Source: an uncultured Pseudomonas sp. (lineage in GTDB: Bacteria; Pseudomonadota; Gammaproteobacteria; Pseudomonadales; Pseudomonadaceae). From it: a stretch of DNA of 64,000 bases. The notes under the pieces were generated by a model. The model did not search any database. It was given only the letters and a program-made list of their open reading frames with translations, and was not told the DNA's origin. Both the position numbers and the translations under genes were made by a program. Positions 5,845-22,246 of the stretch are shown here, piece by piece. Every line of letters starts with the position of its first letter. Within the stretch, counting starts at the first letter, position 1. The stretch is taken from positions 1 through 64,000 of the forward strand of contig NZ_CAJYDW010000004.1 of NCBI RefSeq assembly GCF_913774235.1. Reading direction: 5' to 3'.

Positions 5845-6969
5845 CTAAGCCGGCGCCCGCACGGTCTGCCAACAGGCCAGGGCACTCGCCAGGATGGCGA
5901 GACCGGCGAGCGGATAGACCCAGGCCGGTGACAGCAGCGGCAACAGGACGCCGGCCAACAGAGGACCCAGGCCGGCGCCCACGTCGCGCCAGACGGCGTT
6001 GGCGGCCAGCGCCTGCACCCGTGCCTGGCCAGGATGACGCGCGGCCACCAGGGTCACCACCAGGGGCAGCTGCAGCGCCCGCAGGATCAGCACGCCGCCG
6101 GCGCCCAGCACCAGCCAGTGCCAGCCGAAGGCGCTCAGCGCGAGGGCCGTGAGGGCGGAAAAGGTCACCAGCATGGTCGCCGCACCGTAGCGCTCGGCGG
6201 CCCAGCCACCCAGGGGACTCAGGCTCATCTCCGAGGCGTAGCGCAGGGCCATCAGCAGCCCGGCGATCAGCACCGCGTTGCCACCGAGGGCGGCCTGGGC
6301 GAAGACCGAGAGGCCGAAGATGAACAGGCCATCCAGGGCAACGCCCTCGATGAAGGACCAGATGGCGATGCGGTCGGGCCACTGGAAACGCCGCCCTGAG
6401 CTGGCGAGTCGGTGAGGTTGCGTCGGCAGGCGGCTGGCCACCAGCAGGCCCACCAGGCAGCAGCCGGCGAGCAGGAGGAAGATCAACCGCGGACCGAAGT
6501 GCAGCGTGATCCAGGCGCCGAGGGGCAGCGCCAGCATGGGGCCGATGGCGATCAGGGCGCGGGAGGTACCCGAGCGGCGTGCGGCGCCGCCTGGCTCGGC
6601 GGTGGCCAGTACCTGGGTGGAGAGATTGAAGACCGCGAAACACAGGCCCCAGGCCAGCCGCAGCAGGATCAGCCACCAGAAGCCCGAGAGCGTCGCGTTG
6701 CCCAGGGCGCACAGCGCTGCTACCCCGGCCGCGAGCATGAGGCTGTGACGGTCGCCGAAGCGGGCATAGCCGTGGACGACGTAGCGGTAGCCGAAGATGC
6801 GCACCAGGCGATTGGCGGCGAGCAGTACGCCGGCTTCGGTCAGGCCGATACCGAAGGCCTCGGCATTCATCGGCAGGATGAGATAGAGCAGGACGTCGCT
6901 GGGCAAGCACAGCGCGAGAACGATCGCCGCCCGCCGGGAGTCGCGGTCGACGGGATGGATGCTGACCAT
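5845..6969 (-). CDS. MFS transporter
   Basis: Multi-pass ORF (ORF track 5845..7050); likely start MVSIHPVDRDSRRAAIVLALCLPSDVL. Confidence 0.75.
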   Translation of the reverse strand: MVSIHPVDRDSRRAAIVLALCLPSDVLLYLILPMNAEAFGIGLTEAGVLLAANRLVRIFGYRYVVHGYARFGDRHSLMLAAGVAALCALGNATLSGFWWLILLRLAWGLCFAVFNLSTQVLATAEPGGAARRSGTSRALIAIGPMLALPLGAWITLHFGPRLIFLLLAGCCLVGLLVASRLPTQPHRLASSGRRFQWPDRIAIWSFIEGVALDGLFIFGLSVFAQAALGGNAVLIAGLLMALRYASEMSLSPLGGWAAERYGAATMLVTFSALTALALSAFGWHWLVLGAGGVLILRALQLPLVVTLVAARHPGQARVQALAANAVWRDVGAGLGPLLAGVLLPLLSPAWVYPLAGLAILASALACWQTVRAPA

Positions 6970-7588: not shown

Positions 7589-8880
7589 GCACTGCAAAAG
7601 CCTTGAGCGTCCTCGGTCTGGCCGCGCTGCTGAGCGCCTGCGGTAACGAAGGCGGCGCCGACGTCCAGGCCCGCGGCCCCGATCCCAAGCTGCCCGAACC
7701 CCAGCGTGGCCTCCTGCCGAGCATGAAGATCGCCCAGCCGGCGCCCTGGGGCGATCGCGTGCCCACGGTGCCCCAGGGCTACACCATCACCGCCATCGCC
7801 ACCGATCTGCGCATTCCGCGGCAGATGCTGGTGCTGCCCAATGGCGACATCCTGGTGGCCGAGGGCCGCGGCGGCAATGCGCCCAAGCTCAAGCCCAAGG
7901 ACGTTATCGCCGGCTATATCAAGGCCCAGGGCAACACCCAGGTGAAGGGCGGTAATCGCCTGACCCTGCTACGCGACGCCGATGGCGACGGCAAATACGA
8001 ACTCAAGACGGTGTTCGCCGAGAATCTCAACGCGCCCTACGGCCTGGCCTTCGCCAACGGCCGCATCTATGTGGCCAATCAGGACGCCCTGGTGAGTTTC
8101 CCCTACCAGGACGGCCAGACCCAGGCCAGCGGCGCGCCGGACAAGCTGGTCGATCTGCCCGCGGCGATCAACCACCACTGGACCAAGGCGCTTACCGTCA
8201 GCCCCGATGGTCGCTATCTGTACGTGGGCATCGGCTCCAACAGTAACGTCGGCGAGCGGGGTATGGACGTCGAGGTGGATCGCGCGGTGATCTGGCAGAT
8301 CGATGCCCAAAGCGGCGCCCACAAGACCTACGCCACGGGGGTGCGCAACCCCACGGCCCTGGCCATCCAGCCCGGCAGCGGTCAGCTCTGGGCCGTGGCC
8401 AACGAGCGCGACGAAATCGGCCCCGATCTGGTACCGGATTACCTGACCTCCATCCGCGAAGGCGGCTTCTACGGCTGGCCCTACAGCTACTGGGGGCAGA
8501 ACGTCGATACCCGCGCCCAGCCGCAGGACCCGGCCAAGGTGGCTGCGGCCATCAAGCCCGACTACAGCCTGGGCTCCCATGTCGCCGCCCTGGGCGTGGC
8601 CTTTTCTACCACGGCGGTGGGCGGGCAGTTCACCGATGGGGTCTTCGTCGGCGAACACGGCAGCTGGAACCGCGACAAGCCGGTGGGCTATCGCGTGGTC
8701 TTCGTGCCTTTCCAGCAGGGGCGGCCCGTCGGTGAACCCATCGACTTCGCCACCGGTTTTTACGGCGACGACGGCAAGACCCGTGGCCGACCGGTAGGCG
8801 TGGCGGTGGATCAGCGCGGTGGTGTCATCATCGCCGACGACCTGGCCAATACCGTCTGGCGGGTGACGCGCACTCAATAA
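7585..8880 (+). CDS. Sorbosone dehydrogenase / PQQ-type sugar dehydrogenase-like lipoprotein
   Basis: Lipobox LSAC near the N-terminus (MSTAKALSVLGLAALLSACGNEG), then beta-propeller motifs LVLPNGDILVAEGRG, YATGVRNPTALAIQPGSGQLWAVANERDEIG and VFVGEHGSWNRDKPVGYRVV. Confidence 0.85.
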   Translation: MSTAKALSVLGLAALLSACGNEGGADVQARGPDPKLPEPQRGLLPSMKIAQPAPWGDRVPTVPQGYTITAIATDLRIPRQMLVLPNGDILVAEGRGGNAPKLKPKDVIAGYIKAQGNTQVKGGNRLTLLRDADGDGKYELKTVFAENLNAPYGLAFANGRIYVANQDALVSFPYQDGQTQASGAPDKLVDLPAAINHHWTKALTVSPDGRYLYVGIGSNSNVGERGMDVEVDRAVIWQIDAQSGAHKTYATGVRNPTALAIQPGSGQLWAVANERDEIGPDLVPDYLTSIREGGFYGWPYSYWGQNVDTRAQPQDPAKVAAAIKPDYSLGSHVAALGVAFSTTAVGGQFTDGVFVGEHGSWNRDKPVGYRVVFVPFQQGRPVGEPIDFATGFYGDDGKTRGRPVGVAVDQRGGVIIADDLANTVWRVTRTQ

Positions 8881-8891
8881 GGTGCGAGAAA

Positions 8892-8927
8892 GATCGGCTT
8901 GCCGCGCAGTGGGGCGGCGAGCCGATC
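8892..8927. terminator. Long hairpin between convergent genes (bidirectional terminator candidate)
   Basis: GATCGGCTTGCCGC ... GCGGCGAGCCGATC inverted repeat between two convergent stop codons. Confidence 0.55.
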
Positions 8928-12968: not shown

Positions 12969-13868
12969 TCAGCTGCGTTCGGTCTGCCACTGACCGAGCA
13001 GGATGGCGACGAATTTTTCCGCGGCGGGCGACAGCGAGGCGCCGCGGCGCGAGACCAGGCCCAGCGTCCGGGTCACCTCCGGGTCGCTGAGCGGCACGCT
13101 GACCAGGGTCGGGTGATCGGCGTCCGGCATGGCCAGGCTGGGCATGGCCGAGACGCCAAGGCCGGCTTCCACCATGCCCAGGGAGGTCGACAGGTGCTGC
13201 ACCTCATAGAACCACTTGGGGCGGATGCCGCGGGCGGAGAGAGCATGGTCGAGCAGCACCCGGTTGCCACTCAGGCGCCCCACGCCGATCAGTCGATGCT
13301 CGACCAGCTCGGCCCAGCTGACCGAACTGCGCGCGGCCAAATCGTGGTCGCGCCGGCAGGCGAGCACGAATTGCTCCTGCACCAGGGGCACGAATTCGAT
13401 ATCCGGGTGCTGGCCGCTGAGCATGTTGATGCCGAAGTCGGCCTCGCCGCGCAGCACGGCTTCCAGGCCGTCATTGGCGCTGAGATCGAGCAGGCGGATG
13501 CGGATCTTGGGATATTGCTCGTTGTACTGGCGGATCACCGACGGCAGGAAGTAGAAGGCCGCGGTGGGGATGCAGGCCAGGGTGACCTGACCGGTCTGGC
13601 GTTCGGCCAGTTCGCGGATGCTGAGGATGGAGTCCTCGAAATCGTCCAGTAGGCGGCGTGCCTTGGGCAGGAAATCCCGACCCACGCTGGTGAGGCCGAC
13701 CCGACGAGTGGTGCGTTCGAGCAGCGGCGTGCCGAGGCCGTCCTCCAGCTTCTTGATGCGCCGACTCAGGGCCGGCTGAGAAAGGTGCAGGGCATCTGCG
13801 GCCTCGTGGAAGCTGCCAAGTTCGGCGATTTTCACGAAAGATCGGATATCTTGCAGCTCATAATCCAT
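12969..13868 (-). CDS. LysR-family transcriptional regulator
   Basis: MDYELQDIRSFVKIAELGSFHEAADALHLSQPALSRRIKKLE; divergent from the isomerase gene. Confidence 0.9.
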   Translation of the reverse strand: MDYELQDIRSFVKIAELGSFHEAADALHLSQPALSRRIKKLEDGLGTPLLERTTRRVGLTSVGRDFLPKARRLLDDFEDSILSIRELAERQTGQVTLACIPTAAFYFLPSVIRQYNEQYPKIRIRLLDLSANDGLEAVLRGEADFGINMLSGQHPDIEFVPLVQEQFVLACRRDHDLAARSSVSWAELVEHRLIGVGRLSGNRVLLDHALSARGIRPKWFYEVQHLSTSLGMVEAGLGVSAMPSLAMPDADHPTLVSVPLSDPEVTRTLGLVSRRGASLSPAAEKFVAILLGQWQTERS

Positions 13869-14014: not shown

Positions 14015-15094
14015 ATGCAACGTATTCCGTGCGTTCTCATGCGGGGCGGTACCTCCAAAGGCCCCTTCTTCCTTGCCAGCGACCTGCCCAGCGACCCCGC
14101 CCTGCGCGACGAGATGCTGATCGACCTGATGGGTGCCGGTCATGAACTGGAAATCGATGGTATCGGCGGCGGCAGCCCCCAGACCAGCAAGGTTGCCATC
14201 ATCAGTCCGTCCAGCCATCCCGCTGCCGATGTGGACTATCTCTTCGTCCAGGTGATGGTCGCCGAGCGGCGCGTCGACACCGCGCCCAATTGCGGCAACA
14301 TGCTCTGCGCCGTAGGTCCCTTTGCCGTGGAGCAGGGGATGGTCGCTGCCGAGGACGGCAAGACCCTGGTGCGCATCCGCAATCTCAACACCAACAGCTT
14401 CGTCGACTCCCTGGTACATACGCCCGGCGGCGTGGTGCGCTATGAAGGCGACACCGCCATCGACGGCGTACCCGGTACCGCCGCCCCGGTCCAGCTGACC
14501 TTCCTCGATGCCGTGGGCAGCAAGACCGGCAAGCTCTTCCCCACCGGCCAGGCCACCGACGTCTTCGACGGCGTGCCGGTGACCTGCATCGACATGGCCA
14601 TGCCGATGATGATCGTCGAGGCCCGCCACCTGGGCGTGACCGGCAGCGAACGGCCGGCCGAGCTGGATGCCAACGCGGCCTTGCTGGCGCGGCTGGAAGC
14701 CTTGCGCCTGCAGGCCGGCCGGGCCATGGGCCTGGGCGATGTCAGCGGCAAGGTGATTCCCAAGCCGGTACTGATCTCCCAGGCGCAGCAGGGCGGTACC
14801 CTGCAGGTGCGCTACTTCATGCCGCACAGCTGCCATCGGGCGCTGGCCATCACCGGCTCCATCGGCCTGGCCACCGCCTGCGTCACCCCGGAAACGGTGG
14901 TTACGGCGCTGCTCGGTGAGTCGGCGCGGGACCTGACCCATGTCCGCCTGGAGCATCCGAGCGGCGGTATCGACGTGGTGCTGTCGCGCGGCGGCGCGGA
15001 CGGCACTACCATCCAGGCCTCGGTCGTCCGGACCGCGCGCCGACTGTTCGCCGGCCACGTGTACGCGCCCACCGCGCGGAGGCTCGCCGGCTAG
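14015..15094 (+). CDS. PrpF-family isomerase, 4-oxalomesaconate tautomerase-like
   Basis: MQRIPCVLMRGGTSKGPFFLASDLPSDPALRDEMLIDLMG, EIDGIGGGSPQTSKVAII and NCGNMLCAVGPFA, all characteristic of the GalD/PrpF family. Confidence 0.85.
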   Translation: MQRIPCVLMRGGTSKGPFFLASDLPSDPALRDEMLIDLMGAGHELEIDGIGGGSPQTSKVAIISPSSHPAADVDYLFVQVMVAERRVDTAPNCGNMLCAVGPFAVEQGMVAAEDGKTLVRIRNLNTNSFVDSLVHTPGGVVRYEGDTAIDGVPGTAAPVQLTFLDAVGSKTGKLFPTGQATDVFDGVPVTCIDMAMPMMIVEARHLGVTGSERPAELDANAALLARLEALRLQAGRAMGLGDVSGKVIPKPVLISQAQQGGTLQVRYFMPHSCHRALAITGSIGLATACVTPETVVTALLGESARDLTHVRLEHPSGGIDVVLSRGGADGTTIQASVVRTARRLFAGHVYAPTARRLAG

Positions 15095-15153: not shown

Positions 15154-16467
15154 ATGAAACTCGCCAAATCGCTGTACTTCCAGATCCTCTGCGCCGTGGT
15201 CCTCGGGGTGCTGGTCGGTCACTTCTGGGCGCAACAGGCCGTCGCGCTCAAGCCCCTGGGTGACGCCTTCATCAAGCTGATCAAGATGATGATCGCCCCG
15301 GTGGTGTTCTGCACCATCGTCACCGGCATCGCCGGCATGACCGACAAGAGCACCCTGGGTCGCCTGATGGGCAAGACCCTGCTGCTGTTCCTGGTGCTCA
15401 CCGTGATCAGCCTGTTCATCGGCCTCGGCGCGGTCTATCTGTTCCAGCCTGGCGTGGGCATGAACATCGACCCGGCGACCCTGAGCACCGCCAGCATCGC
15501 CCAGTACACGGCGTCGGCGGCCAAGCTCAGCGTGGTCGACTTCTTCATGCACATCATCCCGGACACCTTCATGGGGGCGTTCAACAAGGGTGAGGTGCTG
15601 CCGGTGCTGTTCATCGCCGTGCTCTGCGGCTTCGCGCTGTCCGCCATGGGCGAGCGCGGCCGGCCGGTGCTGGAGGTGCTGGAGTCGGCCTCGCAGATGG
15701 TCTTCCGCATCTTCGGCTACCTGATGCGCTTCGCCCCGGTGGGTGCCTTCGGTGCCCTGGCCTTCACCGTGGGCCAGTACGGCATCACCTCGCTGGGTTC
15801 CCTGGCCAAGCTGATCGCCACCCTCTACATCGCCTGCGCCTTCTTCGTCTTCGTGGTGCTGGGCGCGCTGTGCCGCTCGCGCGGCTTCAGCCTGTGGAAG
15901 CTGCTGCGCTACTTCCGCGAGGAATTCCTGGTGGTGCTCGGTACCTCGTCCACCGAGCCGGTGCTGCCGCGCATGCTGCAGAAGCTGGAAGGCCTGGGTT
16001 GCAAGAAGGGCGTGGTCGGCCTGGTGCTGCCCACCGGCTACTCCTTCAACCTGGACGGTACCGCCATCTATCTGTCGCTGGCCGCCGTGTTCATCGCCCA
16101 GGCCTGCAACATCGAGCTCAGCGTCGGCCAGACCCTGACCATGCTGGCGATCATGCTGCTGTCCTCCAAGGGCGCGGCAGGGGTGACCGGCAGCGGCTTC
16201 GTCGCCCTGGCCTCGACCCTCACCGTGATCCACGACATCCCCCTGGCTGGCCTGGCGCTGCTCATCGGCATCGACCGCTTCATGTCCGAAGCCCGCGCCC
16301 TCACCAGCCTGGCCAGCAACGCCGTGGCCACCGTGGTGATCTCCCTGGCCGAAGGCGCCTGCGACCGCGAGAAGCTGATGCGCGCCCTGGAAACCGGCAA
16401 GGCCGAACCCCTGGCCGTGACCGACGCGCCCGAGTGGACCGCGCCGGACGTCCGTCCCCACGCCTGA
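15154..16467 (+). CDS. dctA: C4-dicarboxylate transporter of the DctA/DAACS family
   Basis: MKLAKSLYFQILCAVVLGVLVGHFWAQ, TSSTEPVLPRM, LPTGYSFNLDGTAIYLSLA. Confidence 0.93.
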   Translation: MKLAKSLYFQILCAVVLGVLVGHFWAQQAVALKPLGDAFIKLIKMMIAPVVFCTIVTGIAGMTDKSTLGRLMGKTLLLFLVLTVISLFIGLGAVYLFQPGVGMNIDPATLSTASIAQYTASAAKLSVVDFFMHIIPDTFMGAFNKGEVLPVLFIAVLCGFALSAMGERGRPVLEVLESASQMVFRIFGYLMRFAPVGAFGALAFTVGQYGITSLGSLAKLIATLYIACAFFVFVVLGALCRSRGFSLWKLLRYFREEFLVVLGTSSTEPVLPRMLQKLEGLGCKKGVVGLVLPTGYSFNLDGTAIYLSLAAVFIAQACNIELSVGQTLTMLAIMLLSSKGAAGVTGSGFVALASTLTVIHDIPLAGLALLIGIDRFMSEARALTSLASNAVATVVISLAEGACDREKLMRALETGKAEPLAVTDAPEWTAPDVRPHA

Positions 16468-16598: not shown

Positions 16599-17912
16599 AT
16601 GCTCGCACTCCTCGGTTTGATCATGGTGGTGACCTTCACCTACCTGATCATGAGTAAACGTCTATCGCCCATCGTGGCCCTCACCGTGGTGCCGATCGTC
16701 TTCGCCATCATCGGTGGCTTCGCCCCGACCACGGGCAAGATGATGCTCGACGGCCTGAAGATGGTGGCACCCTCGGCGGCCCTGCTGCTGTTCGCCATCC
16801 TCTTCTTCGGCCTGATGATCGACGCCGGGCTGTTCGATCCGCTGATCCGCAAGATCCTCAAGCGCGTCAACGGCGATCCGGTGAAGATCGCCATCGGCAC
16901 CGCATTGCTCTCGCTGCTGGTCGCCCTGGATGGCGACGGCACCACCACCTACATGATCACCTGCGCCGCCATGCTGCCGCTGTACAAGCGCATCGGCATG
17001 AACCCCATGGTGCTGGCGACCATCTCCATGCTCTCGCTGAGCATCATGAGCGGCATGAGTCCCTGGGGCGGCCCGGCCACCCGCGCCATCGCCGCGCTGG
17101 GGCTGGACGCCACCGCCTACTTCATTCCCATGTTGCCCACGGTGATCGGTGGGGCGGCCTGGGTGGTGTTCACCGCTTTCCTGCTCGGCCGCCGCGAACG
17201 CGGGCGCATCGGCAACGTCGCCCTGGAGAGCGGTGGCACGGCCGGCGGCAAGTGCTACATCGAGGAGATCCTCGGCGATTCGCCGACCAAGCGGCCGCGT
17301 CTGGCCTACGTCAACCTGGTACTGGTGATCGCGGTGATGACCGCCCTGGTCATGGGTGTGATGCACGCCGCCATCCTGTTCATGATCGGCTTCGTGCTGG
17401 CGCTGATGATCAACTATCCGCAGCTGGAGCTGCAGAAGGAGCGCATCCTGGCGCACTCCGGCAACGCCATGACGGTGGTGCTGCTGGTGTTCGCCGCGGG
17501 CATCTTCGCCGGCATCTTCTCCGGGACCAAGATGGTCGATGCCCTGGCCCAGACCCTGGTCAACTGGATTCCGCCGGCCTGGGGCCACTGGTTCCCGCTG
17601 GTGGTGGCCATCACCAGCATGCCGCTGACCTTCGTGCTGTCCAACGATGCCTACTACTTCGGCGTGGTGCCCATCCTGGCCAACGCCGCCGCGGCCTACG
17701 GCATCGATCCGGTGGAGATCGCCCGCGCCTCGGTACTGGGCCAGCCGGTGCACCTGATGAGTCCGCTGGTGGCCTCCACCCTGCTGCTGGTGGGCATGGT
17801 CGACCGCGACATCGGTGACTTCCAGAAGGCCACCGTCAAATGGGCGGTGCTGACGTCCCTGGTCATCACCGCCCTGGCGCTGCTCACCGGCGCCATCTCC
17901 TTCTTCGTCTGA
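16599..17912 (+). CDS. CitMHS-family citrate transporter (first paralogue)
   Basis: MLALLGLIMVVTFTYLIMSKRLSPIVALTVVPIVFAIIGGF; LSNDAYYFGVVPILAN; CitMHS architecture. Confidence 0.9.
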   Translation: MLALLGLIMVVTFTYLIMSKRLSPIVALTVVPIVFAIIGGFAPTTGKMMLDGLKMVAPSAALLLFAILFFGLMIDAGLFDPLIRKILKRVNGDPVKIAIGTALLSLLVALDGDGTTTYMITCAAMLPLYKRIGMNPMVLATISMLSLSIMSGMSPWGGPATRAIAALGLDATAYFIPMLPTVIGGAAWVVFTAFLLGRRERGRIGNVALESGGTAGGKCYIEEILGDSPTKRPRLAYVNLVLVIAVMTALVMGVMHAAILFMIGFVLALMINYPQLELQKERILAHSGNAMTVVLLVFAAGIFAGIFSGTKMVDALAQTLVNWIPPAWGHWFPLVVAITSMPLTFVLSNDAYYFGVVPILANAAAAYGIDPVEIARASVLGQPVHLMSPLVASTLLLVGMVDRDIGDFQKATVKWAVLTSLVITALALLTGAISFFV

Positions 17913-17987: not shown

Positions 17988-19241
17988 ATGTCCCTACTTC
18001 TCAAGAGCGGCGCGGGTTGCGCCGCCCTGTGCGCCTGCGTGCCCTTCGCCGATGCCGCCGGCTTCCTCGACGACAGCAAGCTCAAGCTGCAACTGCGCAA
18101 CGTCTACTTCAACGAGAATTTCCGCGACGAACAGGGCTTGAGCGCCCGCGCCGCCGCCACGGCGAAGAGCGAACGCACCGAATGGGCCCAGGGGTTCCTG
18201 CTGGATTACCGCTCGGGCTTCACCCCGGGCACCGTCGGTTTCGGCCTGGACGCCATCGGCCTGCTCGGACTGCGTCTGGACTCCGGACGCGGCCGCAGCG
18301 GTACCGGGTTACTGCCGGTGCACAGCGATGGGCGGGCGGCGGCGGAGGCCAGTTCCTTCGGCGCTACCGCCAAGGCCCGGCTGGGCAAGACGGTGGTCAA
18401 GCACGGCACCCTGCTGCCCAAGACGCCGGTGCTGGTCTACAACGACGCCCGGCTGCTGCCCCAGACCTATCAGGGCACCCAGCTGGTCAGCGACGACATC
18501 GCCGGCCTGACCCTCACCCTGGCGCGCCTGGACAGGTTCAAGCTGCGCGATTCCACCGACAGCAAGGGTCTCTTCGCCGATGGCTACAGTGGTGGCCAGT
18601 CAGGCGATTTCAGCTACGCCGGGGCGGACTACCAGGTGAGCAAGGCCCTGAAGGTCAGTTACTTCCATGGCCAGTTGAACGACTTCTACCGCCAGGACTT
18701 CGCCGGCTTCCAGCACGACCTGCCGCTGGCGGGGGGTGTGCTGACCAGCGACCTGCGCTATTTCAAGAGTCGCGACACTGGCGCGGCCTACGCGGGAAAG
18801 ATCGACAACGCCATGCTCAGCGGCCAACTGACCTACGCCCACAGCGGTCACACGGTCGGCGCGGGACTGCAGAAACTCAATGGCGACGCCGGCCTGCCCT
18901 ACATCAGCGGTGCCACCGTCTATTCCTTCAGCAACGTCGGCATCGGCAAATTCATCGAGGAAGACGAGCAGAGCTGGCTGCTCAGCTATGCCTACGACTT
19001 CAAGTCCGTGGGCTTGCCCGGGCTGACCTTCATGACGCGCTACATCAGCGGCGATAACGGGCGTTCCGGCAGCGAAGGGCTGCACGAGTGGGAGCGCGAC
19101 GTGGAGCTGGCCTACGTGGTACCCAAGGGACCGCTCAAGGGCTTCGGCGCCAAGGTGCGCAACTATGTCTATCGCGCCGACTTCGCCCGTGGCCGGGACA
19201 GCAACCGCCTGTACCTGACCTACGATCTGGCGCTCTGGTAG
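17988..19241 (+). CDS. OprD-family outer membrane porin
   Basis: Signal peptide then GFLDDSKLKLQLRNVYFNENFRD; AQGFLLDYRSGFTPGTVGFGLDAIGLLGLRLDSG; C-terminal NRLYLTYDLALW. Confidence 0.92.
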   Translation: MSLLLKSGAGCAALCACVPFADAAGFLDDSKLKLQLRNVYFNENFRDEQGLSARAAATAKSERTEWAQGFLLDYRSGFTPGTVGFGLDAIGLLGLRLDSGRGRSGTGLLPVHSDGRAAAEASSFGATAKARLGKTVVKHGTLLPKTPVLVYNDARLLPQTYQGTQLVSDDIAGLTLTLARLDRFKLRDSTDSKGLFADGYSGGQSGDFSYAGADYQVSKALKVSYFHGQLNDFYRQDFAGFQHDLPLAGGVLTSDLRYFKSRDTGAAYAGKIDNAMLSGQLTYAHSGHTVGAGLQKLNGDAGLPYISGATVYSFSNVGIGKFIEEDEQSWLLSYAYDFKSVGLPGLTFMTRYISGDNGRSGSEGLHEWERDVELAYVVPKGPLKGFGAKVRNYVYRADFARGRDSNRLYLTYDLALW

Positions 19242-19280: not shown

Positions 19281-20066
19281 TCACTGGGCGGGGATGGGCT
19301 TGAGGCCGCTGTCCTCGATGGCCTTGGCGGCGTCCTTGGAGGCCAGGTACTTGAGCATGGCGCGAGCGGCGTCCGGATGCTGGCTGTGGCTGACCACGGC
19401 GCCGGAATAGAGGGTCATCTTCTGCGCCTGGTCGGGGATCAGGCCGACGATGTCGATGCCCTGCACGGGCTTGAGTTCGCTCAGTTGCTGGAAGCCCAGC
19501 TGGGCCTCGCCGCGGGCCACCACCTCGCCCACGGGAGTGGCGGGGATCATGCGCGCCTTGGCGTTGAAGGCCTCACCCAGCTGCAGGCGCGGAAAGAGCA
19601 CGCGGGACAGGTAGACGCCGCTGGCGCTGTCGGAATAGGCCACCGACTGGGCGCTTTCCAGGGTCTGCTTGAAGGCGTCCATGGTCGAGATATCCGGCTT
19701 GGGCGCACCCTTGCGCACCGCCAGGGCGATGAACGACTGGCCCAGGTCGACGCGACTGTCCTTCACCGCCTGGCCGTCGGCGATCAGCTTGTCCAGCGCC
19801 GAACCCACCATCAGCACCACGTCTGCCGGCTCCTTACGTGCCAGGCGATTGGGGATGGCCTGGGGCGTGTCGCCCATGGATGGCGCGGCGGCGATCTCCA
19901 GTTTCACCCCGGTGGCCTTCTCGTAGGCCGGCGCCACTTCGCGGATGGCGCCCATGATGCCGCCCGAGCTCAGGATGGTGAGGGTGGTGGGCTGCGCGGC
20001 GAGCAGGGGAGTGGTGGAGGCCAGCAGCAGGGCGCCCAGGGCGAGGGAGGGTAGACGTCGGAACAT
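19281..20066 (-). CDS. Periplasmic ModA-like (type II SBP fold) protein; candidate aconitate isomerase
   Basis: 261 aa with signal peptide (MFRRLPSLALGALLLASTTPLLAAQ); TLTILSSGGIMGAIREVAPAYEKATGVKLEIAAAPSMGDT. No modB/modC adjacent; sits beside tricarboxylate transport genes. The fold call is firm, the isomerase function is inferred. Confidence 0.75.
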   Translation of the reverse strand: MFRRLPSLALGALLLASTTPLLAAQPTTLTILSSGGIMGAIREVAPAYEKATGVKLEIAAAPSMGDTPQAIPNRLARKEPADVVLMVGSALDKLIADGQAVKDSRVDLGQSFIALAVRKGAPKPDISTMDAFKQTLESAQSVAYSDSASGVYLSRVLFPRLQLGEAFNAKARMIPATPVGEVVARGEAQLGFQQLSELKPVQGIDIVGLIPDQAQKMTLYSGAVVSHSQHPDAARAMLKYLASKDAAKAIEDSGLKPIPAQ

Positions 20067-20217
20067 GGCAGAGACTCTCGTTGGAAAAGACCGACGATAG
20101 ACCGCGCGCCCGGGCTTGGCGCATGAGTCAGGATGAAAAAAAATTTAGTTTACCGACCCAGGGGTTTTGCCTAGGGTGTGCGGTCCGCTGAACCGGGGAC
20201 GAGATCGAGAGGCAACC

Positions 20218-20895
20218 ATGACCCAGGCTTTGGTCATCGAGGACGACGAGGTGACCGCCCAGTCCATCGCCAGCGCCTTGCGCGCGCAGGACTACCAGGT
20301 GCGCTGGGAAAGCACCGGACGCGACGGCCTGGCCGCCGCCATCGCCGGCGGCCACGACATCATCACCCTCGACCGCATGCTGCCGGACTTCGACGGCCTG
20401 ACCATCGTCAGCACCCTGCGCGGCCTCGGCATCGCCACCCCGGTGCTGATGCTGAGCGCCCTGTCCGATGTCGACGAGCGGGTGCGCGGCCTGAGGTGCG
20501 GCGGCGACGACTACCTGACCAAGCCGTTTTCCCTGGTGGAGATGGTGGCGCGCCTGGAGGCCCTGCTGCGACGCCCGGTTGCCCAGTCCGCCAGTCATCA
20601 GTTGCGGGTGGGCGAGCTGACCCTGGACCTGATCGACAACACCCTGACCCGCGCCGGCGAAGCCATCGCTCTGCTGCCGACCGAATTCAAGATCCTCACC
20701 TACCTGATGCGCAACGCCGGGCAACTGGTGACCCGCACCATGCTCTTCGAGCAGGTCTGGGGCTATCACTTCGATCCGGGCACCAACATCATCGATGTCC
20801 ACATGGGCCGCCTGAGACGCAAGATCGAGCGGGCAGGGCGGCCGCTGGTGCATACGGTAAGAGGAGCCGGCTATGTCCTCGTCGTCCCGGACTAG
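20218..20895 (+). CDS. OmpR-family response regulator
   Basis: MTQALVIEDDEVTAQSIASAL receiver and C-terminal winged helix (NIIDVHMGRLRRKIERAG..VHTVRGAGYVL). Confidence 0.92.
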   Translation: MTQALVIEDDEVTAQSIASALRAQDYQVRWESTGRDGLAAAIAGGHDIITLDRMLPDFDGLTIVSTLRGLGIATPVLMLSALSDVDERVRGLRCGGDDYLTKPFSLVEMVARLEALLRRPVAQSASHQLRVGELTLDLIDNTLTRAGEAIALLPTEFKILTYLMRNAGQLVTRTMLFEQVWGYHFDPGTNIIDVHMGRLRRKIERAGRPLVHTVRGAGYVLVVPD

Positions 20896-22246
20896 GCGCT
20901 GGCGCTCGGGCAGCAGTCGCCTGCTGGCGCTCTATGCGCTGCTCTTCGTGGCCTGGGGCGCGGTCTTCACCGGGGTGCTCTATTGGCAGATCTCCGGCTA
21001 CCTGGGTGCGGTGGCGGAGCGCACCCTGCTGCAACGGGCGCACTACTACGGCAAGGTCGCGGACGCCGACCTGCTGGGCGAGCTGCAGGCCAGCGAGGTC
21101 TATTCCATGCCCGGCATCGACGCCTACGGCCTGTTCGAGGCCGATGGTCGCTATGTGGCCGGCAATCTGGTCAAGCTACTGCGCAACCTGCCGGATGACG
21201 GCCAGGTGCACTACCTGCAGCGCGGCCTCAGGACCACCGACGCCCTGGACGAGACGCGCAGCAGCCATGCCTTTCTGCAGCGCCGCGCGGACGGCCGCAT
21301 CCTGGTACTGGCCCGCGATGGCGGCTCCATCTCGGCGGTGGGCGGCATCATCGGCCAGGCGCTGTTCTGGGGCCTGTCGCTGACCCTGATCCCTGGACTG
21401 GTCGGCTGGCACCTGCTGCGGCGCCGACCGCTGCGGCGCGTCGAACGACTGCAACGCAGTCTGGAACTCATCGTCGCCGGTCACCTCGAAGAACGCCTGC
21501 CGCTGTCGCCGCGCCACGACGAACTGGACATGCTGGCCGATGCGGTCAATACCACCCTGGCCCAGCTGGAGCGCTCGATGCACGAGGTGAAGGGGGTATG
21601 CGATGGCATCGCCCATGACCTGCGCACTCCGCTGACGCGTTTGCGCGCGCGGTTGCATCAGCTCCAGCAGTTGCCCTTGGCCGAGCCCCAGGCCGAGCGT
21701 CTGGGGGAGGCGCTGGCCGAGACCGAGGCCATCATGTCGCGCTTCCAGGGCTTGCTACGCATCTCCGAGCTGGAGGATACCCGGCGGCGCATGGCCTTCG
21801 CCCCGCTGGACCTGGCCGCGCTGTTGCGCCAGGCCCATGAGTTCTACGAGCCCATGGCCCAGGAAAAGGCCCAGACCCTGACCCTGGAACTGGCCGCTGA
21901 CCTGCCGGCGGTGCAGGGCGACGCGGAGTTGCTGTTCGAGGCGCTGGTCAACCTGCTGGACAATGCCGTCAAGTTCGCCCCGGTGGGCGGCCGGGTGCGC
22001 CTGGTCGCCTACGCCGCCGGGGCTGGGCTGCGCATCGAGGTCATCGACGACGGCCCCGGCATCCCCGAGGCCGAGCGGGAGAGCGTGCTGCGCCGGCTCT
22101 ATCGCGGCGATGCCAGTCGCCAGCAGCCGGGCTATGGCCTGGGGCTGTCGCTGGTCGCCGCCATCGTGCGCTTGCATGGCTTCAGCCTGAGCATCGCAGC
22201 AGCCGAACCGACCGGCGCACGGGTGGTCATCGCCAGCGCTACCTGA
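20873..22246 (+). CDS. Sensor histidine kinase
   Basis: HAMP-like region, CDGIAHDLRTPLTRLRARL H-box, NLLDNAVKFAPVGG N-box, GYGLGLSLV G-box; overlaps the response regulator gene. Confidence 0.92.
   Translation: MSSSSRTRRWRSGSSRLLALYALLFVAWGAVFTGVLYWQISGYLGAVAERTLLQRAHYYGKVADADLLGELQASEVYSMPGIDAYGLFEADGRYVAGNLVKLLRNLPDDGQVHYLQRGLRTTDALDETRSSHAFLQRRADGRILVLARDGGSISAVGGIIGQALFWGLSLTLIPGLVGWHLLRRRPLRRVERLQRSLELIVAGHLEERLPLSPRHDELDMLADAVNTTLAQLERSMHEVKGVCDGIAHDLRTPLTRLRARLHQLQQLPLAEPQAERLGEALAETEAIMSRFQGLLRISELEDTRRRMAFAPLDLAALLRQAHEFYEPMAQEKAQTLTLELAADLPAVQGDAELLFEALVNLLDNAVKFAPVGGRVRLVAYAAGAGLRIEVIDDGPGIPEAERESVLRRLYRGDASRQQPGYGLGLSLVAAIVRLHGFSLSIAAAEPTGARVVIASAT

Follow-up and report, generated by a model that had tools for sequence, protein, structure and literature searches.

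A predicted periplasmic aconitate isomerase with a ModA-like fold in an uncultured Pseudomonas sp., and its relatives

Among the closest described systems is the aconitate isomerase Ais of Pseudomonas sp. WU-0701, which was reportedly traced by Yuhara et al. (FEBS J, 2015) to a 786-bp gene with an N-terminal signal peptide, and whose product is said to share 90% with a P. psychrotolerans and 74% with an X. albilineans protein, each of which carries the annotation of a molybdenum binding protein. The enzyme, the identification of its gene and its high efficiency are cited as published in three papers (PMC13188880, PMC11495376, PMC8871043); one of these gives a kcat/Km of 800 per s per mM and an efficiency ∼1,200 times that of TbrA, which matters for bioproduction (PMC13188880), and a further paper cites Klinman and Rose for the 1,3-allylic shift of an aconitate isomerase from P. 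putida (PMC5690661). Further aconitate isomerases, TarA/TbrA (B. velezensis, B. thuringiensis), belong to the PrpF superfamily, and tarA is divergent from a LysR regulator gene (tarR-tarA) and adjoins a carrier gene (PMC11495376). TarA/TbrA catalyze the same reaction as Ais but have an unrelated fold, are cytosolic and carry no signal peptide, and the carrier TarB is of the MFS type.

The gene examined here lies at 19281–20066 on the minus strand of the window (the whole stretch of 64,000 nucleotides of an uncultured Pseudomonas sp. that was analyzed). It is an ATG-to-stop ORF of 786 bp including the stop codon, encoding 261 aa, and 9 more genomes from this genus conserve it at 88–96%, which excludes a chance ORF. 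The encoded protein starts with MFRRLPSLALGALLLASTTPLLAAQPTTLTILSSGG, and its N-terminus, MFRRLPSLALGALLLASTTPLLAA followed by QP, was read by eye from the sequence as a typical Sec signal peptide of approximately residues 1–24 (19995–20066, minus strand). The AlphaFold2 pLDDT was <50 over the first residues, and a hydrophobic N-terminus was present in 105 of 113 relatives. SBP_bac_11 (PF13531) matched the protein with an E-value of 2.3e-43 in Pfam, PF01547 matched weakly, and the mature protein was modeled confidently (mean pLDDT 91.4). When the model was compared to the PDB with Foldseek, ModA-type binding proteins were closest, followed lower down by the carboxylate/phosphate binders PEB3 and AcfC; a sequence search for an Ais structure returned no solved structure of a relative beyond ModA-level similarity. 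The original prediction of a 786-bp ORF for a ModA-like protein with a signal peptide and no adjoining modB/modC was thereby borne out by the ORF call, the N-terminal reading, the PF13531 match and the absence of ModB within 6 kb.

The protein shares 89–96% with proteins of the clade of P. oryzihabitans, the species under which NCBI places P. psychrotolerans, and 72–73% with those of X. albilineans and of GPE 39, a strain related to it, and all of these group together in the tree. Set against the figures reported for WU-0701 Ais, it has the same length, and in a comparison of percentages it would fall in the same clade at similar identities. We therefore consider it very probable, judging from sequence, that the product of 19281–20066 is an aconitate isomerase (EC 5.3.3.7) acting in the periplasm and an ortholog of the WU-0701 enzyme. 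This reading follows from clade membership, from failed ModA criteria and a true ModA encoded elsewhere, from linkage to symporter genes and from the analogous role of a sister clade, as detailed below. With high confidence, the predicted enzyme would be a known kind of enzyme found in a further member, and there is good evidence that it would belong to a larger, unrecognized isomerase family.

The resemblance to ModA was examined at several levels. The best NCBIfam matches were ModA models below their cut-offs (TIGR01256, 31.4 vs. 62.5 bits; PRK10677, 32.3 vs. 253 bits); other binding-protein models matched as well, all far below cut-off, and no NCBIfam model fitted the family better or its relatives as a group. 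A long branch separates the family from ModA in the tree, and a true modE-modA-modB locus sits on another contig of the same genome. ModB was encoded within 6 kb of the isomerase gene in 0 of 111 relatives, the nearest case being Aquitalea magnusonii (L048), where a modABC set with its own ModA lies 6.3 kb off and provides a natural control. The oxyanion ligands of molybdate in ModA, which we take to be Ser12, Ser39, Ala125, Val152 and Tyr170 (E. coli numbering), were compared at Ser12, Ser39 and Tyr170, Ala125 and Val152 having no confident mapping: Ser12 is replaced by Gly36 and Tyr170 by Gln194, while Ser39 is kept as Ser63. A conserved insertion of 5 residues (GDTPQ region) follows Ser63, the second ModA ligand serine, and S34, R74, S111, S145, S149, Q193, Q194, E197 and T218 make up a signature that hardly varies within the family and that three ModA sequences lack. 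Thus, the type II periplasmic binding protein fold is shared with ModA, whereas the missing ModBC, the sub-cut-off scores, the replaced ligand positions and the insertion set the family apart. That the protein is nevertheless a ModA molybdate binder working with a distant ModBC would accord with the ModA-type structures found closest in the PDB, with the hhalign probability of 97.7% to E. coli ModA and with older annotations that name relatives ModA; given the score of 31.4 bits, the genome's own modA next to modE and modB, the lack of ModB near any of the 111 relatives and the Gly36 and Gln194 replacements, this is extremely improbable, and a ModA function was rejected. The original prediction had named conserved molybdate ligands together with measurable molybdate binding as an argument against an isomerase; of the three ligand positions compared, two are replaced. 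Its central claim of an aconitate isomerase misnamed ModA is strongly supported, with catalysis itself predicted.

The neighborhood in the window was annotated by Pfam and NCBIfam profiles, which confirmed the PrpF-like, DctA, CitMHS and OprD neighbors originally proposed. A LysR-type regulator gene (12969–13868, minus strand) is divergent from a gene for a PrpF-superfamily isomerase (14015–15094, plus strand; NF033377, named 4-oxalomesaconate tautomerase in NCBIfam, 520 bits vs. cut-off 440), which is followed on the plus strand by genes for a DctA-type dicarboxylate symporter (15154–16467; NF002461, 594 vs. 513 bits), a CitMHS citrate:proton symporter (16599–17912; TIGR00784, 643 vs. 260 bits) and an OprD-family outer-membrane porin (17988–19241; PF03573, 462 bits). 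Since the isomerase gene converges on oprD, it lies outside the oprD operon. On its other side, an intergenic region of 151 bp (20067–20217), as read from the layout, probably holds both divergent promoters and leads to the plus-strand genes of an OmpR-family response regulator (20218–20895; best models all below cut-off) and its partner sensor histidine kinase (20873–22246; profile search). A TctDE identity of this two-component system was rejected (TctD, 138.7 bits vs. cut-off 337); a tricarboxylate is a candidate for the signal that it senses. Members of the P. oryzihabitans clade share the order LysR-PrpF-DctA-CitMHS-(OprD)-Ais-RR-HK, which for the most part also holds in Pseudomonas further removed. 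CitMHS, DctA and PrpF are constant across the P. oryzihabitans clade, CitMHS being conserved at 97–98%, and oprD is absent from 4 of 8 close genomes with the window counted (L011, L012, L014, L015), where CitMHS then adjoins the isomerase gene, so that the porin is an accessory, variable part of the cluster.

In the proposed mechanism, the enzyme would have arisen from a binding protein with the ModA/type II fold. Trans-aconitate would cross the outer membrane, the protein would close on it and a 1,3-allylic proton shift in the periplasm would yield cis-aconitate, with R74, S34, S63, S149, Q193, Q194, E197 and T218 as candidate pocket residues; cis-aconitate or citrate-like acids would then enter through inner-membrane symporters (CitMHS here, probably taking up cis-aconitate/citrate; TcuC in other lineages) and feed the TCA cycle. 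Catalysis, periplasmic location and in vivo direction are all predicted from the sequence. Trans-aconitate inhibits aconitase (PMC13188880), and isomerization outside the cytoplasm, which would keep the inhibitor out, would for that reason protect the cell. The three-step route through OprD, Ais and CitMHS that had been suggested is supported in part: the symporter step fits a gene constant in the clade; the porin step is weak, with oprD absent from half of the close genomes and the isomerase gene forming a separate, convergent transcription unit.

The two-component system, divergent at a distance of only 151 bp, and the linkage to tricarboxylate carriers would also be expected of a non-catalytic periplasmic protein that binds a tricarboxylate and presents it to an adjacent sensor kinase or carrier, as the periplasmic binding protein BctC does in Bordetella. 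Such a role is very improbable, as the two-component system is conserved in part of the Pseudomonas clade only, the partner carriers CitMHS, TcuC and DctA need no binding protein, and the signal-less sister clade described below keeps the same residues; lacking a signal peptide, its members cannot act as periplasmic receptors.

With the aconitate isomerase reading retained for 19281–20066, the PrpF-type neighbor at 14015–15094 was considered in its own right. Its product matches PF04303 (PrpF domain), which the PF13531 protein encoded at 19281–20066 does not, and it keeps the TSK and NCGN motifs, corresponding to the PrpF catalytic K73/C107. That it shares a superfamily with TarA/TbrA, the cytosolic aconitate isomerases, had been left out of the original prediction. 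Like tarA, the gene is divergent from a LysR gene and adjoins a carrier gene. By this analogy, its product may be a second, cytosolic, TarA-like aconitate isomerase, and a single substrate may be served by two unrelated isomerases encoded in the window. A gallate-pathway role of the PrpF-type protein was rejected: profile searches of the 99.96%-complete genome found neither gallate dioxygenase (GalA) nor LigK over cut-off, and the only LigB match reads as a DODA-type dioxygenase. The same absences bear on whether the protein encoded at 19281–20066 isomerizes another tricarboxylate, e.g. 4-oxalomesaconate or a methylaconitate, as the oxalomesaconate pathways around the cytosolic sister clade and the NCBIfam name of the PrpF-type neighbor might suggest. 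Moreover, a plant tricarboxylate taken up from outside matches both a location in the periplasm and the citrate/tricarballylate carriers, and the protein is closely akin to the aconitate isomerase that was reportedly purified; a different substrate is therefore highly unlikely, and aconitate remains the favored one.

Gene contexts were surveyed for 111 relatives from alpha-, beta- and gammaproteobacteria. In 33 of these, a gene for a TcuC-type citrate/tricarballylate:proton symporter (NF011656, 734 bits vs. cut-off 445) lies within 1 kb of the isomerase gene, the 33 loci being phylogenetically non-independent, with at least six lineages showing the linkage. They come from Sphingomonas, Azospirillum, Nitrospirillum, Aquitalea, Burkholderia, Paraburkholderia, Pantoea, Cronobacter, Franconibacter and Pseudomonas. 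As the window's own genome has one NF011656 gene over cut-off in 5.1 Mb, chance linkage would be expected at well under one locus. Neighboring LysR proteins fell into two groups by identity to that of the window (12969–13868), 46 loci at ≥42% and 13 at ≤32% with none between, and LysR genes near the isomerase gene in other clades reached 42–53%. Some loci are flanked by ATP-citrate-lyase-like, aconitase-family or TRAP-carrier genes. Counting against the isomerase reading, no tricarboxylate gene adjoins the isomerase gene in the Xanthomonas, Bradyrhizobium and chromosomal Pantoea loci. Taken by sequence, the relatives appear to form a whole misannotated branch of isomerases built on a binding-protein fold.

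Family-level search scores were bimodal among 179 genomes, with ∼42 of the periplasmic type and most others scoring like a cytosolic clade. The low-scoring group contains proteins that have no signal peptide, carry the same pocket signature and form one clade (12/12, support 0.946; L121:4992–5681 on the minus strand, L112, L113, L119, L122 and L143–L149). Their genes are located in operons for protocatechuate 4,5-cleavage or gallate, where in proteobacterial genomes they adjoin genes for an OMA hydratase-like amidohydrolase, LigK (417 vs. 304.5 bits) and a PDC-hydrolase-like amidohydrolase; neighbors of this kind also accompany members in Acidovorax carolinensis, in a Burkholderia multivorans gallate operon, in Arthrobacter keyseri and in Pseudarthrobacter Sphe3. 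No PF04303 (PrpF-family) protein was found in genomes G119 and G652, the PrpF proteins of G236 and G561 are of the 2-methylcitrate type only, and G642 has an OMA-type PrpF elsewhere besides the sister-clade operon. OMA hydratase and CHA aldolase are thus co-encoded with the sister-clade protein where a PrpF-type tautomerase is missing. The simplest reading of these gene sets is that the sister clade would be a non-orthologous 4-oxalomesaconate (OMA) tautomerase filling the missing step. Its predicted 1,3-allylic isomerization of a tricarboxylate would be that of the OMA tautomerases LigU/GalD of the PrpF superfamily, which differ in fold and are not homologous. The Comamonas operon pmdUKEFDABC reportedly starts with pmdU, which is said to have been proposed as the tautomerase gene, and PmdU of Comamonas E6 may, we presume, be a sister-clade protein; the order in G236 (sister-clade protein, PcaK-like, LigJ, LigK, LigI) matches that of the Comamonas operon, gene order alone being compared.

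On the plasmid of Pseudarthrobacter phenanthrenivorans Sphe3 (L144), the sister-clade gene at 6001–6699 is pcaT. The published figure of that cluster lists the pathway enzymes without a tautomerase and labels the gene 'pcaT, ABC-type molybdate transport system' (PMC8431788). If the above reading is true, the cytosolic branch would fill an unfilled step in the catabolism of lignin-derived aromatics, with a gene now called a molybdate transporter in Sphe3 (pcaT, PMC8431788). Taken together, it seems rather likely that an offshoot of ModA-like proteins gave rise to allylic isomerases of tricarboxylates, with a periplasmic aconitate isomerase branch and a cytosolic OMA tautomerase branch that would parallel the unrelated PrpF superfamily, in which both activities likewise arose. 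For trans-aconitate users that have no TarA, such as Pantoea, the aconitate isomerase still to be assigned could be that of the periplasmic branch.

A family member is encoded in each of 13 genomes of the genus, that of the window among them, and is of the close type in 10. A genus-spread sample of the class gave matches in 3 of 369 genomes, 2 of them of the cytosolic type, in a search whose first-look filter may lose some matches; the periplasmic type is accordingly patchy. It was present in 43 of the 61 sampled Pantoea genomes (G680–G743). In recent work on the use of trans-aconitate, genomes were queried with PrpF-type TarA only and TbrA was called the only sequence available; growth on trans-aconitate was reported there for Pantoea agglomerans and Serratia marcescens strains that lack a TarA homologue (PMC11495376). 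As the ModA-like family is absent from such surveys, has no NCBIfam model and is found in so many Pantoea genomes, the missing gene is suggested directly, and the periplasmic type is a candidate for it in Pantoea agglomerans.

Three further contexts were recorded. In G002, a genome from the window's genus, the gene of a diverged relative (44%; L115:4962–5843, minus strand) lies ∼1.9 kb from a moeA-like gene (7704–8900, plus strand), which counts against the isomerase reading and may be due to chance or to a molybdenum link in that subclade. A relative of 57–59% on a Pseudomonas plasmid (L090) adjoins genes for an ABC-2 exporter and a WsaF-like glycosyltransferase and not carbon-acid genes; an ABC partner for it was rejected, as the adjoining ABC genes encode an ABC-2 polysaccharide exporter with the WsaF glycosyltransferase. 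In two Paraburkholderia loci (L093, L100), the isomerase gene occurs together with genes for TcuC, DctA and LysR and an ATP-citrate-lyase-like gene pair, a set that suggests a citrate or aconitate cleavage module.
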